This document shows positions 56,201-63,852 of a stretch of 64,000 bases of DNA, piece by piece; within the stretch, counting starts at the first letter, position 1, and every line of letters begins with the position of its first letter. Below the pieces are notes generated by a model. The model did no database searches, was not told where the DNA came from, and worked only from the letters and a program-made list of their open reading frames with translations. Source of the DNA: Porpolomopsis calyptriformis (lineage: Eukaryota > Basidiomycota > Agaricomycetes > Agaricales > Hygrophoraceae); assembly GCA_951640195.1 (NCBI GenBank), contig OX621163.1, positions 2,480,001 through 2,544,000 of the forward strand, read 5' to 3'. The position numbers were made by a program, and so were the translations under genes.

Positions 56201-57683
56201 AGCGACAGGTTGATGTACCTTTCGGAACTTGAGTGTACAGTGCTTGAGGTCAAGGTTATTGAAGGGTTAGGCACAACTATTGATGTTGTTCTTTCGAATG
56301 GTATCCTGCGGGAGGGAGAAAAGATCGTTCTATGTGGCCTAAACGGACCCATCGTCACTCAAATCCGTGCCCTTCTTACGCCGCAACCTCTACGAGAGCT
56401 TCGTGTCAAGGTACGTATCACACTCCACACAAGTTGGCATATATCTGAACATTGAATATCAGTCTGCATATGTTCACCATAAAGAAGTCAAGGCAGCTTT
56501 AGGCGTGAAAATCACAGCACCAGACCTGGAGAAGGCTATTGCGGGCTCACGGCTACTCGTTGTTGGTCCCGATGACGACGAGGACGACCTGCGAGACGAG
56601 ATCATGTCAGATCTCACGTCGCTGCTCAATTCTATTGATAAATCTGGACGCGGTGTTTGCGTTCAAGCAAGCACGCTTGGTTCATTGGAAGCGCTACTGG
56701 ATTTCTTGAAGGCTAGCCGTATTCCGGTGTCGGGTATCAATATCGGTCCTGTCCACAAAAAAGATATCATGCGTTCAGCTACGATGCTAGAAAAAGCGAA
56801 AGAACTTGCCTGCATCCTTTGTTTCGATGTTTCTGTAGATAAAGAGGCCGAACGGCTGGCAGAAGAGATGGGAGTTCGTCTGTTTAAAGGTGCGATGCTT
56901 GCTTAAAACAGAATCCATGACACTGAGTTTCTGTTAAGCGGATATCATATATCATCTTTTCGACTCATTTACCGCCTACACTGCCGAGATTGAAGCAGCC
57001 AAGCGAAGAGATGCCGCTCCCCAGGCAGTGTGGCCCTGTCGTCTCAAAATTATCGCCGCGTTTTGCAAACGAGATCCTATTATTTTGGGTGTCGATATTC
57101 TTGATGGTACATTGAGAGTAGGCACTCCCCTTGCTGTCGTAAAGGTTGATTCAACGACACAGAAGAAGGAGATAGTGGAACTTGGAAAAGTGTAGGTTCT
57201 TGACCTAGGAGAATATGTATACTTGCTGACACCTAGAAACTAGAACATCATTGGAGATCAACCACAAAGCACAAGAGGAATGTCAATCCGTATATCGCGT
57301 TACTAGAGGTTAATGATCGTGTTGATTTTCTAGATCGTCAAAAAGTCCCAAGCTGGTGCAGGAGTTGCCGTCAAAATTGAACATGCGGTTTACCAATCAT
57401 CCAAACTATTTGGAAGGCATTTCGATGACAAAGATGAGGTTCTCAGTCATATATCACGGCAAAGCATCGATGTTTTGAAGGTACAACTTCACCGTATTTC
57501 TCTTGCTGGCGCGATGCTAACTTAGCCCAGGGTTCTTTCAAGGCAGACGTAACTACAGAAGAGTGGCAACTCATCAGGTTTCTCAAACCCGTTCGTTTAC
57601 CCATTTGGATCAGGTTATCGAGACTGATAACAAAATTTCCAGCGATTCAACATTCCATAGCATATGACTTAGTGATCACATAA
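53292..57683 (+). CDS. FUN12: Eukaryotic translation initiation factor 5B (eIF5B/Fun12)
   Basis: Translational GTPase that joins the 60S subunit to the 48S complex. The start [18 protein letters not shown] opens a long Lys/Glu-rich leader with coiled-coil blocks ([18 protein letters not shown]) and Ser/Glu runs. The GTPase core begins [18 protein letters not shown] (G1), [20 protein letters not shown] (G2), [20 protein letters not shown] (G3), [20 protein letters not shown] and FIVALNKIDRIYGW (G4). Then come the IF2-like domains: [56 protein letters not shown] then [19 protein letters not shown], and domain IV ([26 protein letters not shown]). The stop depends on the last splice: 57683 is preferred, 57667 possible. 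About 1,190 residues. The initiator-Met-tRNA-binding C-domain is present. Confidence 0.92.
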
Positions 57684-57752: not shown

Positions 57753-60700
57753 TTAAAGCTTTTCAATATCGTCTTCAATGGCTTGTACAATGTCCTCGAA
57801 AGACCTGTGACTGAAATGGCGAAAGCGATGATGTCGCAAGTGGCGAACAAAATTTGCCGCCCATATAAATCTCCCAGACGCTCTCACCACGAGGTCATTT
57901 ACCAATTCCTCTGATGGCCAATTGTGCCAGCCAGATTCCATTGCCACGTACTTGAGTTGCTGCTGCAGGAATGTCCTTATGTCGTCGTTTAATACCGCAT
58001 CCAACGCCAGAATTCTGCCAAACACCTTGAACTCATCTCGACTGAACGCATGACATTCGACAGGCATGGAACGGCTGGTCACCAATAGTTTGAGAGAAGG
58101 AACACTGTCGAAACATCTTGCGAACATGTGCAGCAATGAAAGAGCATAATCATTATGGCACTCGTCCAGCGCATCGATGACAATCAGGAGAGGCATCGGA
58201 AGCGGGTCAACCTGCTGCATTGACTTGATCATAAGTTCCTGAAGGTTGGAAAGCGATGGAAGGGGGATGTTCATCTCCTCAATCGTTTTGAACAGTTCGA
58301 GGATGAAATACGGAAGAGTGCCGCAGAGTTGGAACGCAATGTCACGGGATATGAGATCCATTGTATATTGTTGTCTCCACTGGAAAAAGAAGCTCGCGCC
58401 GAGTAGAGAATCCCGGGCTGCTAATCCGGCGATAGCCCTCGCAAGGATGGTTTTCCCTATTCCCGGTTGCCCCGTTACCCATAATAATCGGGGTGCAGTT
58501 TGATCATGAAGCCAATTGGAAACGTCTGGAAGATAGTGGATGCGCAAATTTTCCGAACCTAATCTGAAGTGTTCTTCGTCCCAATGAGAGTGCTTGAGGT
58601 CCCATTGAACAAGGGTATGGAGGATAAGGCAGAAACGAGAAACCACTTCCATGATCTCCGCATTCATCTGGCGACTTCGCTGCAGGAAGCGTAGAGGGGT
58701 CAACACAATCATAGCGGGACACGCATACGGGACCTACCGAACGCCAGATTCTTGAGCTTTCAAGAATTCTGAGAGTGTCTTGTGGACCCTTCAGAACGCT
58801 AAAGACACCGATCCAACCCAGGAGCGTAGTTCGTGCAAAAGTGTCGAAAGCTTTAGTATTGCATTCACCCAGAGAAGCGCCCAATAGGTGGTGTTCCCAG
58901 TAATGACATGCATAACAGAGGGGTGACAAGTTAGAATCAAGTTGTTCCGCACCATTATTACAGATAGTACCGATATTCTGGGGAAGTGTTCGTAATCGTT
59001 CCAAGCATTGGAGGGCGAGGTCTTCATGCACCGCGGTAGGATTGATACAGAAGTATAGAGAGTGGTTTGGCGCTTTTATGAAATCTACGAAGGACTTGTG
59101 GCTGTGAGGAATGGTCTCACGGCCGATTGTAGCAGCGTCTGGCTTGAAAATCGACCGAAGAGGGAGAAATAAAGTCTGAAAATCAGGAACATCCTCTGTC
59201 CCACATCCACTCTCATCTTCTCGCATCTCAGAAGCCCGATTGTCAACCTCGATCTCGATATCCCCAGGACACAAAGGATAGAGTAAGTCTCTGAGATTAC
59301 GCAAGCTCAGAGGCTTAGCCAAAAGGACTACAGCACCAACAATTCGACGAAATTCGTCGATACCCTCGGAATCCTTGGTAGGGTAGGCAGACTGCAGGAT
59401 TGCCATGAAAAGTTTTCCAATCGGTTCGATTTTCTTTTTCGCTTCAGCTATTTCTGCTGCTGCGAATGGTTTTATCTTCAAAATGATGAGTGTCTCTTTA
59501 ATCTTTGTCGGCCGGTTGCCGTACGTTTTGAGTCGATCCTCGATGAAGATTATTGTGGTTTTGGCCCACAGGAATAGACCTGATGCTTGTGTACAGATAT
59601 CGTCGATATCTTGCTCTCCAATCCAATTGTCTTTGAGGTAGCCATCATCCCGGTTTGAATTAAAATCGCGGGTAATCTCGCATAGGCGGTCGCGGATGAA
59701 GAGATCGACATCAGTTTGGGAGGATAGGTCATCCGTGTCAAGGAACAGGGATCTTACGCCCTTTCCTTGAAGTGGGGTGAAGATATTCGCAACCTCCGTG
59801 TCAGGGCGAAATGTTATGAAGATTTTCACGTTTGGGGGTAACGATTGGATCGAATTTGCTAACAACCGAGAGAATGACTTGATGTCGCGTTCACCTTCAT
59901 CAAGCGCGTCGAAGACGATAACGACGGGCCGAGTCAAATCGCAGTTGGCAGCCACATTAAGAGGATCGATAAAGAGATGCTGAACCTGGTTGTGGTCAAA
60001 GATTTTAGCAATGCTCTTATCACGTACAAGGCTGTCGAAGATTGAGACAAGGACTTCTGCAGGCCTGGTCCTATCTTCGACCAACTGCAATGCCACAGAT
60101 CGAAACACCTCGGTCGCGTCAGTTGTTTTGGGATCGTGTCGATCAAAGAAATGTTGAGCCCAGAGAAGGCCCTCAATCCCAAATTCTTTGGCAATCGACG
60201 AAGCAATTGCGGATTTACCGCTTCCTGGCATGCCTGTGACGTAAAACAGACGAGGGGAGGCCGTCGACGCGTCGAAAACCCAGTTACCAATGTCCACAAA
60301 GATCTTCTCACGGGTTCCAGGATGGCAAGGTTCTTTGACGAGTGGTAACTCGAAGCGAGGTTTGAGCTGTTCAAAGAGGAATGTTTTCCTGGCTTCATCT
60401 TCCTGCGAACGCCGTATGGTGTTCAGCAATTGTGTCTGACGATCTTGTTCCTTACTGGCTCTCACTATGGAAACTTCCTGTTGACGGAGAATTCCACATT
60501 AAAAGAAAAAATCAGAGTGGAGGGCATTGCACCTTAAATGTATCCCGAGCCTTTGCCAGCCTATCTCGGAACTCATTGAGCTTCCCAGGTACTTTCAACC
60601 GTTGGATAGCGCGTTGAAGGCTCCGGTCATCCTGTAGGCACCAAATTTACCGAAAACAGCAATAAAAGCATATTACCAGACATACCAGTCGAGACTTGGC

Positions 60701-61275: not shown

Positions 61276-61470
61276 GTGGCCAAGGTCGGTAGTTCGGCCC
61301 TGGATAGCTGCTTGCAGGCATTGGGTTCGAGCCGGTAACACGCATATGGTAAATCCCCAAAAGGCATATCGATGAAATGCTCGATCAGGGGTATTGCCCC
61401 TGAATAAGTGATTATTTATATGCGTTGAAAAGTTTTTCGTTATCTCCACATCTTGCCACTCGCTACGGCC
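61276..61470. promoter_or_regulatory. Head-to-head promoter region, NACHT gene (-) / permease (+)
   Basis: About 195 bases between the proposed starts. The minus frame stays open through to 61551, so the NACHT start might be further left or right. The permease mRNA leader must begin in this interval. No TATA box is recognised. Confidence 0.4.
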
Positions 61471-63852
61471 ATGTCTGAAAATCCGAAAACCGACCACGAG
61501 GAAGTCCCTCAAATCGACAAAGACGAACTCCAGCTGGTAAAATAAACTCATTTGGCGATGCGGGTGTCACTAGGCGGGACAGGGCTGCTGAATGGTTGTT
61601 TGCTCAATCGGTAACGTCCATAGTAGACGGCTGGATTGGCTGCGGGTATCCCTGTCTATTGGACAGGGATTGAGATCATACCGCTTGAACCTGATCAGTG
61701 CTCATACCTGCGTAGGGAATGCCCCAGCTGTTTGCTTTTTTTTGATTCTGCTCCTCATTTGAGGAGCCCCAGCATAATTACTGATATTTTCTTATAGCAA
61801 AAGCTCGGATACAAACAGGTTCGTGATTATCTCTTCAGGTATCTTATTCTCATGCTATCAACCCCAAACTGCAGCAATTGCATCGCAGCTGGCACCTTAT
61901 CGAAAGCTTTGCTGCTAGTTTTGTTGCTTTGAACTTCATCGGAGGTGTCAGGTAGTCACTCACATCAATTGTTTCGTTCTTTCGTCTTAGTTTGTCCTTC
62001 AGGTCTGCTTTTTTCCTTGGGCTTCAAGCCGGGGGACCTGCAGCTATATGGTAAGCATTCGCTTTAACATATCCCAGTTAACTGTCACATCTTCCAGGTC
62101 GTCGTATGCAATAACAATGGTTTTCATGTTCATCACGGCGGCTGTCTTGGCTGAAATTTGTTCGGCTCTGCCCTTGAGTGGATCTATTTACATCTGGGCA
62201 GCTGCAAGCGCGGGACCGAAATACGCCAGGCTGTTTGGGTTTATCGTCGCATGGTGGGCTTGTACAGCTTGGATGACTTTCGTTGCTAGTAACAGCCAGG
62301 TTCGTTATCTTCTTTCAGTTCTTTTTCCTCGATACGCTAAGGGCTCTACGTAGACGGCTGCAAACTACATTGTATCCCAACTTTCCGTTTATCAGGTAGA
62401 CTTTCCTGGTGGTACCGATGACAGCAACCCCAAATGGCGGGCTCTTATTTGGGCCATCTCTGAGGCTTTGCTCTTTCTCTCTGCCACGATAAATTACCTA
62501 CCACCGAGATTATACTCCATCGTCTTCAAGTTCTCGGTTGGTATTGTGATGCTCGACTTCCTCCTCTGTATCATCTGGCTACCTATCTCGGTTTCAACGA
62601 CATATGGATTTCGCTCTGCCAAAGAAGCTTTTGCCATGACCTGTACGTGCAGTTCCGGAGTTTCAGCCATTAATCTGCGTCTGATATACTTCACTTTTAG
62701 ATAATGGAACGGGCGCACCGGCTGGTTGGAATTGGATTCTATCATTGTCTGTGTTCAAATCTTCGTCACAATATCTGACGTCTATTGACAAAGGACGTAA
62801 AGCCTTTTTACCGCGGGAACGTTGACAGGCTTTGATGCTTCGGGACACATCGCCGAAGAAACCAAAAACGCGAGGTACGCTTTTCTACTTGACCGAAGCT
62901 CGTTTCATGTTAACTCATCACTTAAATAGTGTCATTGCTGCGAAAGGTATTTTGAGTAGCGCTATTGCCACTGGTGTTTTTGGTTTTATCACCACAATTG
63001 TCTTCCTGTTTTGCACACCAGATTTGAATACGGTATTCGCGCTTGATGCTCCTCAACCTTTTGTGCAAATTTACGCATTGGCCCTTGGGAAAGGAGGGGG
63101 TATTGTTATGACCGTAATCGCAGTGATCGGCCTTATGTTGGTATGCATTTTGGTTTCTGGGTGCTGGCACATAAACTGATTCATGCATGGTAGAACACCA
63201 GCGTTGCAATTGTAGCATCTTCCAGGCTCGTTTTTGCTGTCGCTCGCGACGGAGTGTTACCGATGTCAGCTTGGGTGGGCAAAGTAACTCAAGACGGACA
63301 GCCTCAAAATGCTGTTACCGTTATCTATATATTCGCGGCCACTCTCCTATGCACCATTCTTCCCAGCCCAGTAGCATTCACCTCCCTAGTCTCAGCTGCA
63401 GGAATACCCACCATTGCGGCATACGGTCTGATTGCCCTACTTCGCCTTACGATGACACCTGGCCACTTTCAATCTTCACATTTCCGCCTGCATACATTCG
63501 CAAAGCCTTTTTATGTTGCTGCTGTTTTCTTCAACGGGCTTATTTTTGCGGTTCGCTTGCCGTCTTCATCTTCAGTCTTCCATTCTAACTGGTGGTTGTG
63601 TTTCAGGTTATGATATCACCATTTTATTTTCCCGTAGACGCCCAGTCCTTCAACTTCGTGAGTTGAATTTGCGGCGGCTCTGGCTCATTTGCCAACGTAA
63701 TATCTTTGTTATAGGCTTGCGTCATATTTGGTGTAGTGACCGTTTTGGGCATTTTGTGCTGGTATTTTACACCCGAAGACAAGTGGTTGCGCAAAGACCA
63801 CGTGGTTCAGACGATGGAGGCAGCAGACGAACGGGAGAATCATGACGCTTGA
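61471..63852 (+). CDS. APC-superfamily permease, probable thiamine transporter (Thi9-like)
   Basis: Multi-spanning amino-acid/choline/GABA-permease-type transporter. Exon 1 (61471-61536) codes MSENPKTDHEEVPQIDKDEL and QL. After a 261-base intron come a 21-nt exon, QKLGYKQ, and QLHRSWHLIESFAASFVALN. Later: RSAFFLGLQAGGPAAIWSSY, ALPLSGSIYIWAAASAGPKY, LLFLSATINYLPPRLYSIVF, FLFTAGTLTGFDASGHIAEE, VFGFITTIVFLF, VASSRLVFAVARDGVLPMSA and ILCWYFTPEDKWLRKDHV. About 12 membrane helices; the end is NHDA, then TGA. The GFDASGHIAEET motif is typical of the UGA4/Bio5/Thi9 group. Substrate cannot be read from sequence alone, but the intron carries a TPP riboswitch, which favours thiamine or a precursor, as for S. 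pombe Thi9. Intron retention gives an early stop (CTG GTA AAA TAA). Confidence 0.8.
61627..61731 (+). promoter_or_regulatory. TPP (thiamine pyrophosphate) riboswitch, THI box, in permease intron 1
   Basis: The conserved THI-box elements appear in order. P2 5' strand GCGGGTAT (61642-61649) pairs with ATACCGC (61678-61684), with one bulged G. P3 is CCCTGTC (61650-61656) with GACAGGG (61662-61668). The T-loop-type TTGAGA lies at 61670-61675. GAACCTGATC is at 61687-61696, the P5 CAG/CTG strands flank TGCTCATAC, and GCGTAGGGAA is at 61710-61719. P1 is ACGGCTGG (61627-61634) with CCAGCTGT (61724-61731) plus GGC/GCC, with a 3-nt bulge. All lie in the intron 61537-61797. TPP binding and control of splicing are inferred from the known fungal class. 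Confidence 0.9.
61750..61767 (+). promoter_or_regulatory. Perfect hairpin between riboswitch and 3' splice site
   Basis: GCTCCTC (61750-61756), loop ATTT, GAGGAGC (61761-61767): a 7-bp perfect stem 30 bases before the intron's TAG acceptor at 61795-61797. It could bring the aptamer close to the branch site or mask it. Role unknown. Confidence 0.55.

Follow-up and report, generated by a model that had tools for sequence, protein, structure and literature searches.

The first coding intron of an APC permease gene from the agaric Porpolomopsis calyptriformis carries a TPP riboswitch aptamer of the RF00059 family, located within a 64,000-nucleotide stretch of contig OX621163.1 that was analyzed as a whole and is referred to here as the window. 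A first-pass annotation had placed such a riboswitch in this intron, and that assignment is borne out by a full-model RF00059 match, by a spliced model of the gene and by the AA_permease_2 domain of the encoded protein. The transporter is probably one for thiamine or a thiamine-related compound, and in the reading that we favor and regard as likely, high TPP would lead to less transporter through reduced correct splicing of the intron. The positions of the gene, the intron and the elements discussed below are collected in Table 1.

Table 1 Features of the permease gene and of its riboswitch-bearing intron, in window coordinates
Feature	Position	Strand	Evidence
APC permease gene, 12 exons, 525 aa	61471-63852	+	Hand-made spliced model; AA_permease_2, 7e-44; Thi9-like by literature
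Exon 1, 22 codons, ends DKDELQL directly before intron 1	61471-61536	+	Spliced model
Riboswitch-bearing coding intron 1, 261 nt, GTAAAA...TATAG	61537-61797	+	Spliced model
In-frame TAA, met on retention or with a donor downstream of 61545	61543-61545	+	Frame 0 intron translation: VK, then stop
Leader segment, hypothetical; 12 consecutive pairs possible with the P1-extension 5' strand (with G-U)	61593-61604	+	9/5000 dinucleotide shuffles reach 12 pairs
Best candidate alternative 5' splice site, GTTTGC (putative)	61598-61603	+	6.2 bits vs 1.5 for 61537
P1 extension, 5' strand	61622-61634	+	13-pair helix
TPP riboswitch aptamer (RF00059)	61632-61736	+	53.9 bits, E 7e-10, model 1-105; only match found in genome
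P1 extension, 3' strand	61724-61736	+	13-pair helix
Exon 2, 21 nt, QKLGYKQ	61798-61818	+	Spliced model

The splice sites of the permease gene were chosen manually, guided by the sequence and by the reading frame of the permease, and the resulting 525 residues are free of stops. In addition to AA_permease_2, Pfam matched AA_permease to the product (8.2e-27), and amino acid permease was the only Pfam or NCBIfam label obtained for it or for its homologue P0001. By sequence, no relative of solved structure was found at E ≤ 0.001, and among viral contigs none of the five stretches matching the pattern encodes a relative of the locus. Intron 1 is 261 nt long versus 47–58 nt for the other ten introns, and it is flanked by the 22-codon and 21-nt exons that had been reported on either side of it. 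If the intron is retained, exon 1 runs on into GTA AAA TAA and translation ends after 24 codons; the stop expected shortly inside a retained intron is thus present, as the third intron codon. The accompanying statement that splicing decides the reading frame stood in one part and fell in the other: whether the in-frame TAA is met is decided by splicing, but the frame itself is unshifted by retention, because 261 nt corresponds to 87 codons.

The covariance-model search that the first-pass annotation had proposed was run as an E-value scan of 61400–61900 and aligned the aptamer with the whole of RF00059 (model positions 1–105 of 105), while the other four matches in this region had E-values of 2.1 or worse. 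The score lies 0.4 bits short of the Rfam gathering score of 54.3, and for this reason a gathering-threshold scan of the whole window listed no match and the E-value scan was needed to show the aptamer. In the 33.5-Mb genome the aptamer was the single RF00059 match (E 1.1e-8), with no second TPP aptamer at E ≤ 10; at both E settings, 49 of the 1287 first-look candidates of these genome-wide scans were scored. The pattern TGAGA..ACCTGAT..GCGTAGGGA has one match in the genome versus none in a reversed control. The conserved THI-box blocks and P2/P3 pairing described earlier were recovered as UGAGA, GAACCUGAUC and GCGUAGGGAA, with P2 (four pairs and a further U-A), P3 (nine pairs), P4 and P5 all composed of standard pairs, so that the blocks (UGAGA, CCUGAU, GCGUAGGGA) and helices (P2–P5) by which RF00059 is recognized are all found. 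The conserved blocks of TPP aptamers contact the ligand. Judged by sequence, the identity of 61632–61736 as a TPP riboswitch aptamer is confirmed, and we infer from it that the RNA would bind TPP.

Two departures from the family model are seen in the secondary structure. The P3a arm is absent, and two of the five pairs of the Rfam P1 are non-standard; both features accompany the slight deficit in score. Outside the Rfam P1, a 13-pair extension that includes three G-U pairs joins 61622–61634 with 61724–61736. The intron as a whole folds with an energy z of −2.20 relative to shuffles, 5 of 200 of which fold as well. In an unconstrained fold of the wider RNA, pair probabilities reach 0.84 for the P1 extension and 0.95 for P3, with 0.15 for P2, and the aptamer core is not favored (mean pair probability 0.28). 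Forcing the complete aptamer gives −117.3 kcal/mol versus −120.2 kcal/mol for the free fold, a cost of about 3 kcal/mol that could be paid by bound TPP. A seven-pair hairpin is also observed at 61750–61767, downstream of the aptamer and ahead of the 3' splice site of intron 1.

The permease riboswitch belongs to a group already described in print. According to excerpts of the work of Mukherjee and colleagues, riboswitch-regulated amino-acid transporters occur widely across Basidiomycota but are absent from Ascomycota (PMC5882874). Among the TPP riboswitches of Basidiomycota, those in amino acid transporter genes are given as the most prevalent group (PMC11683625). The gene described here has the defining features of this TPPsw-AA group, a TPP aptamer in a basidiomycete gene that encodes an amino acid permease domain, and no difference from the group was found in the portions of the two papers that describe it. 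In the Type III mode outlined in PMC5882874, an internal intron of 200–400 nt has two donors with a stop between them and TPP favors the second donor, a mode stated there, in 2018, not to have been observed by experiment. The intron of 261 nt and an in-frame stop upstream of the aptamer (which begins at 61632) are shared with Type III, the stop being correctly placed provided that the second donor is located beyond 61545; a second donor between the first donor and the aptamer is here a possible one, with 61598 as the candidate.

Other fungal transporters provide further comparisons, in each case as partly excerpted. Basidiomycetes Thi9 orthologues are stated to contain riboswitches (PMC5997356, citing other work), and the permease can be likened, by description, to these and to Schizosaccharomyces pombe Thi9 as a transporter of the amino-acid-permease kind with a TPP riboswitch. 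Neurospora crassa NCU01977 and Candida DUR31 are likewise transporter genes with a coding-intron riboswitch and stops in the retained part, but they belong to the SSF family and have longer introns, of 602 bp and 351 bp, respectively. Thiamin-dependent splicing of the 351-bp coding intron has been demonstrated by experiment for Candida parapsilosis DUR31, with little evidence for a regulated second donor (PMC5997356). The function of thi9-type switches has been doubted for want of experiments (PMC8786325), and PMC12542683, in the part available, bears on pyrithiamine selection in a basidiomycete only. Within these excerpts, experiments were found on ascomycete TPP riboswitches and none on the basidiomycete transporter group.

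In the favored reading, donor 61537 would be used when TPP is low, the 261-nt intron would be removed whole and the 525-aa transporter would be made. At high TPP, the bound aptamer would lower correct splicing, either through an inner donor, for which 61598 is the best candidate, or through intron retention, and by either route the TAA at 61543 would end translation after 24 codons. Candidate donors were scored with a weight matrix built from the gene's ten other donors, a small set whose members score 4.2–9.8 bits under their own matrix. The first donor (GTAAAA) reaches 1.5 bits on this scale and the donor at 61595 reaches 4.4 bits, each below the value predicted for 61598 (Table 1), and a product spliced from 61598 still holds TAA 61543–61545. 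A weak first donor together with a better one at 61598 is, on these scores, as expected of regulated donor choice. The site at 61611 (GTAACG), considered as a second donor, scored −0.1 bits and was dropped in preference for 61598.

A variant of this explanation dispenses with the second donor, TPP simply hindering splicing at 61537, and we regard it as a tentative possibility. The low score of the first donor would suit such a switch, as would the stop, which comes so early in the intron (after two codons) that a second donor is unnecessary; the better-scoring donors at 61598 and 61595 speak against it. Also in favor of the variant, thiamin chiefly increased unspliced RNA in the reporter for Candida DUR31, and a single donor is evident in some genes (PMC5997356, in excerpt); against it, the Type III model, as excerpted, assumes two donors (PMC5882874).

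Folding leaves the expression platform unexplained, because donor accessibility hardly differs between free and aptamer-forced RNA (0.60 and 0.62 for 61537, and 0.36 and 0.36 for 61598, respectively). The mean accessibility of 61537, 61595, 61598 and 61611 shifts by at most 0.03 among the free, aptamer-forced and P1-forbidden states, and the GU at 61730 in the P1 3' strand has accessibilities of 0.02 free, 0.00 forced and 1.00 with P1 forbidden. Eight region pairs were also compared by duplex energy with 1000 shuffles each. For the leader, 141, 155, 79 and 617 shuffles were as good as the actual pairing with the P1 5' strand, J3/2, P4–P5 and the P1 3' strand, respectively; for exon 1, the corresponding counts were 78 with the P1 5' strand, 438 with J3/2 and 849 with P4–P5. 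The sole standout was the pairing of the end of exon 1 and first donor (61518–61538) with the P1 3' strand (61723–61738), at −15.3 kcal/mol, for which 6 of 1000 shuffles were as good. This pairing points in the wrong direction, and a base-pairing mechanism drawn from the eight region pairs was rejected.

It is conceivable, though unlikely, that donor choice depends on co-transcriptional strand mimicry, in which the leader segment 61593–61604, which holds donor 61598, would compete with the P1 3' strand to pair with the P1 5' strand. A leader hairpin would then hide the inner donor until the aptamer is complete, whereupon TPP would lock P1, free the leader and expose the donor. The leader at 61594–61604 and the P1 3' strand at 61726–61736 are alike at 9 of 11 bases, and the leader hairpin appears in partial transcripts only, with mean pair probabilities of 0.32, 0.70, 0.48 and 0.10 in RNA ending at 61640, 61660, 61690 and 61720, respectively, and 0.02 in the full RNA; the energy of the duplex between the leader and the P1 5' strand is, as noted above, unremarkable. 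If true, such a mechanism would be unlike both platforms that the excerpted literature describes, one relying on P4–P5 to pair with the region around the donor and the other on the P1 3' strand to pair with a remote segment.

We consider quite improbable a long-range switch of Type II, in which a remote segment close to the first donor would be the pairing partner of the P1 3' strand. The standout duplex between 61518–61538 and 61723–61738 is the pairing that such a switch would use, but it is one of eight region pairs tested together, and it spans the donor, so that splicing would presumably be blocked in the absence of TPP, which is the wrong direction for feedback. The introns assigned to Type II in the available part of PMC5882874 are, moreover, 650–900 nt long and lie in urea-type transporters, as compared with 261 nt and AA_permease_2 in the APC gene.

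Homologues of the permease numbered 817 at E ≤ 0.001 among 8000 scored candidates, and the 120 of these that were listed share 63–80% identity. Names attached to them include amino acid, amino acid/polyamine and gamma-aminobutyric acid transporter, and the named ones come from species that we take to be basidiomycetes, specifically mushroom-forming fungi; many rows are nameless. Searched back against the genome, the best homologue gave eight matches, seven within the permease gene and one weak match (39%) on another contig. The joined motif of exons 1 and 2 (a DELQL-like segment, one or two residues and an LGYK-like segment) is present in 45 of the 120 listed homologues; the other 75 comprise 11 in which a DELQL-like motif has a different continuation and 64 lacking the motif, many of which start later in the protein. 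In the model of P0012 (Mycena sanguinolenta), 21 residues are kept between DELQL and KLGYKQ, as if an inner donor had been used with no stop, which could also be a prediction error.

The three-frame translation of intron 1 contains GLRSYRLNLISAHTCVG and IEIIPLEPDQCSYLRREC, and aptamer-like peptides are found N-terminal to the permease in 5 of the 120 listed homologues (P0026, P0028, P0037, P0041 and P0073), a count of aptamers seen via protein records that says nothing on the other 115, whose introns are unseen. Searched by tblastn against intron 1 in a fixed search space, the five N-termini scored 32.3–53.5 bits (E 4e-5 to 2e-11). In the control, 120 proteins against 200 shuffled introns, the best match was 26.9 bits, and matches at E ≤ 0.05 arose in 20 of the 200 shuffles, one of which matched 12 proteins. 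Because the five N-termini align with the translated aptamer above the shuffle level, an aptamer is recognizable at the same place in Lentinula raphanica (P0028), Gymnopilus dilepis (P0037), Cyclocybe aegerita (P0041), Mycena olivaceomarginata (P0073) and one nameless record (P0026). These N-termini are probably aptamers translated by error in mis-annotated gene models, and through such records riboswitches can be located starting from protein databases. Public-protein searches with the translated-aptamer N-termini of P0028 (two found, itself and P0026) and P0041 (one found, itself) did not enlarge the set of five.

The recurrence of the aptamer also bears on whether it might be a relic, recognizable in sequence with its regulation lost, which we think very unlikely. 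A score slightly under the gathering cut-off and a core that is not favored in the unconstrained fold could reflect such decay, but the conserved, ligand-contacting blocks are intact, and in a neutral intron the aptamer would hardly have persisted at a matching site across four named genera and a further nameless record. A suggestion in excerpts of PMC8786325 (2022), that lost function could underlie the lower conservation of thi9-type switches, would be in line with a relic. Chance resemblance to RF00059 at 61632–61736, with no riboswitch at all, is extremely improbable and already refuted as far as sequence can do so: the sub-threshold score is the sole point in its favor, and the genome-wide E-value of the one match, the reversed control of the motif pattern and the aptamers in relatives all argue against it.

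The gene neighborhood bears on an 'unusual exception' noted in the available part of PMC5882874, a TPP riboswitch in an eIF5B intron in Gloeophyllum trabeum and in an eIF5B 3'UTR in Postia placenta. On the permease strand and some 3.9 kb upstream of the gene, eIF5B-like sequence is present in pieces at 56463–57590 (+), with no other such locus found genome-wide. Four of the 120 listed permeases (P0013, P0016, P0067 and P0111) are named translation initiation factor 5B, and in P0087 (Agrocybe chaxingu) one gene model joins an IF-2-like part (residues 8–61, NF003078, E 1.6e-8) to the whole permease start, while Pfam found no initiation-factor domain in P0087. It is likely that eIF5B and the permease are old neighbors and that the published eIF5B riboswitch belongs to the permease, having been assigned to eIF5B through gene-model fusion or a wrongly drawn 3'UTR; the upstream gene may thus give a plain account of the published 'TPP riboswitch in eIF5B'. 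Two long NPHP3_N/NACHT reading frames at 57753–60498 (−) lie between the eIF5B-like gene and the permease, perhaps as a later insertion between old neighbors.

The permease probably imports thiamine or a related compound, to judge from its riboswitch, the published transporter group and the detection of TPK in a genome where THI4 and NMT1 were undetected. The first-pass reading of it as a Thi9-like thiamine transporter is in line with the excerpted literature and with the lack of THI4 and NMT1 matches. For THI4, PF01946 gave no match in the genome at E ≤ 0.001, a search of limited sensitivity, and TIGR00292 at E ≤ 10 gave nine weak matches only (best E 0.00359), within model positions 17–65, which we take to be the nucleotide-binding part. 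NMT1 gave no genome match to PF09084 at E ≤ 0.001, again with limited sensitivity, and at E ≤ 10 the genome had no match for TMP synthase (PF02581), HK (PF02110) or Phos_pyr_kin (PF08543). PF08543, a domain expected in most fungi, should also match pyridoxal kinase; because this search was empty as well, the absences are soft and the method likely misses intron-cut genes. TPK was found exon by exon at two places (contigs C7:719133-719665 and C3:1154354-1154885). Undetected THI4 and NMT1 together with a detected TPK fit reliance on uptake; a reading as auxotrophy is not adopted.

With its 261-nt intron, one aptamer found in the genome and a stop two codons past the first donor, the gene provides a compact test case for this riboswitch group. 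The switch probably serves to shut down vitamin uptake once the cell has enough, and, with the genes for de novo thiamine synthesis undetected, uptake may be the main control point.
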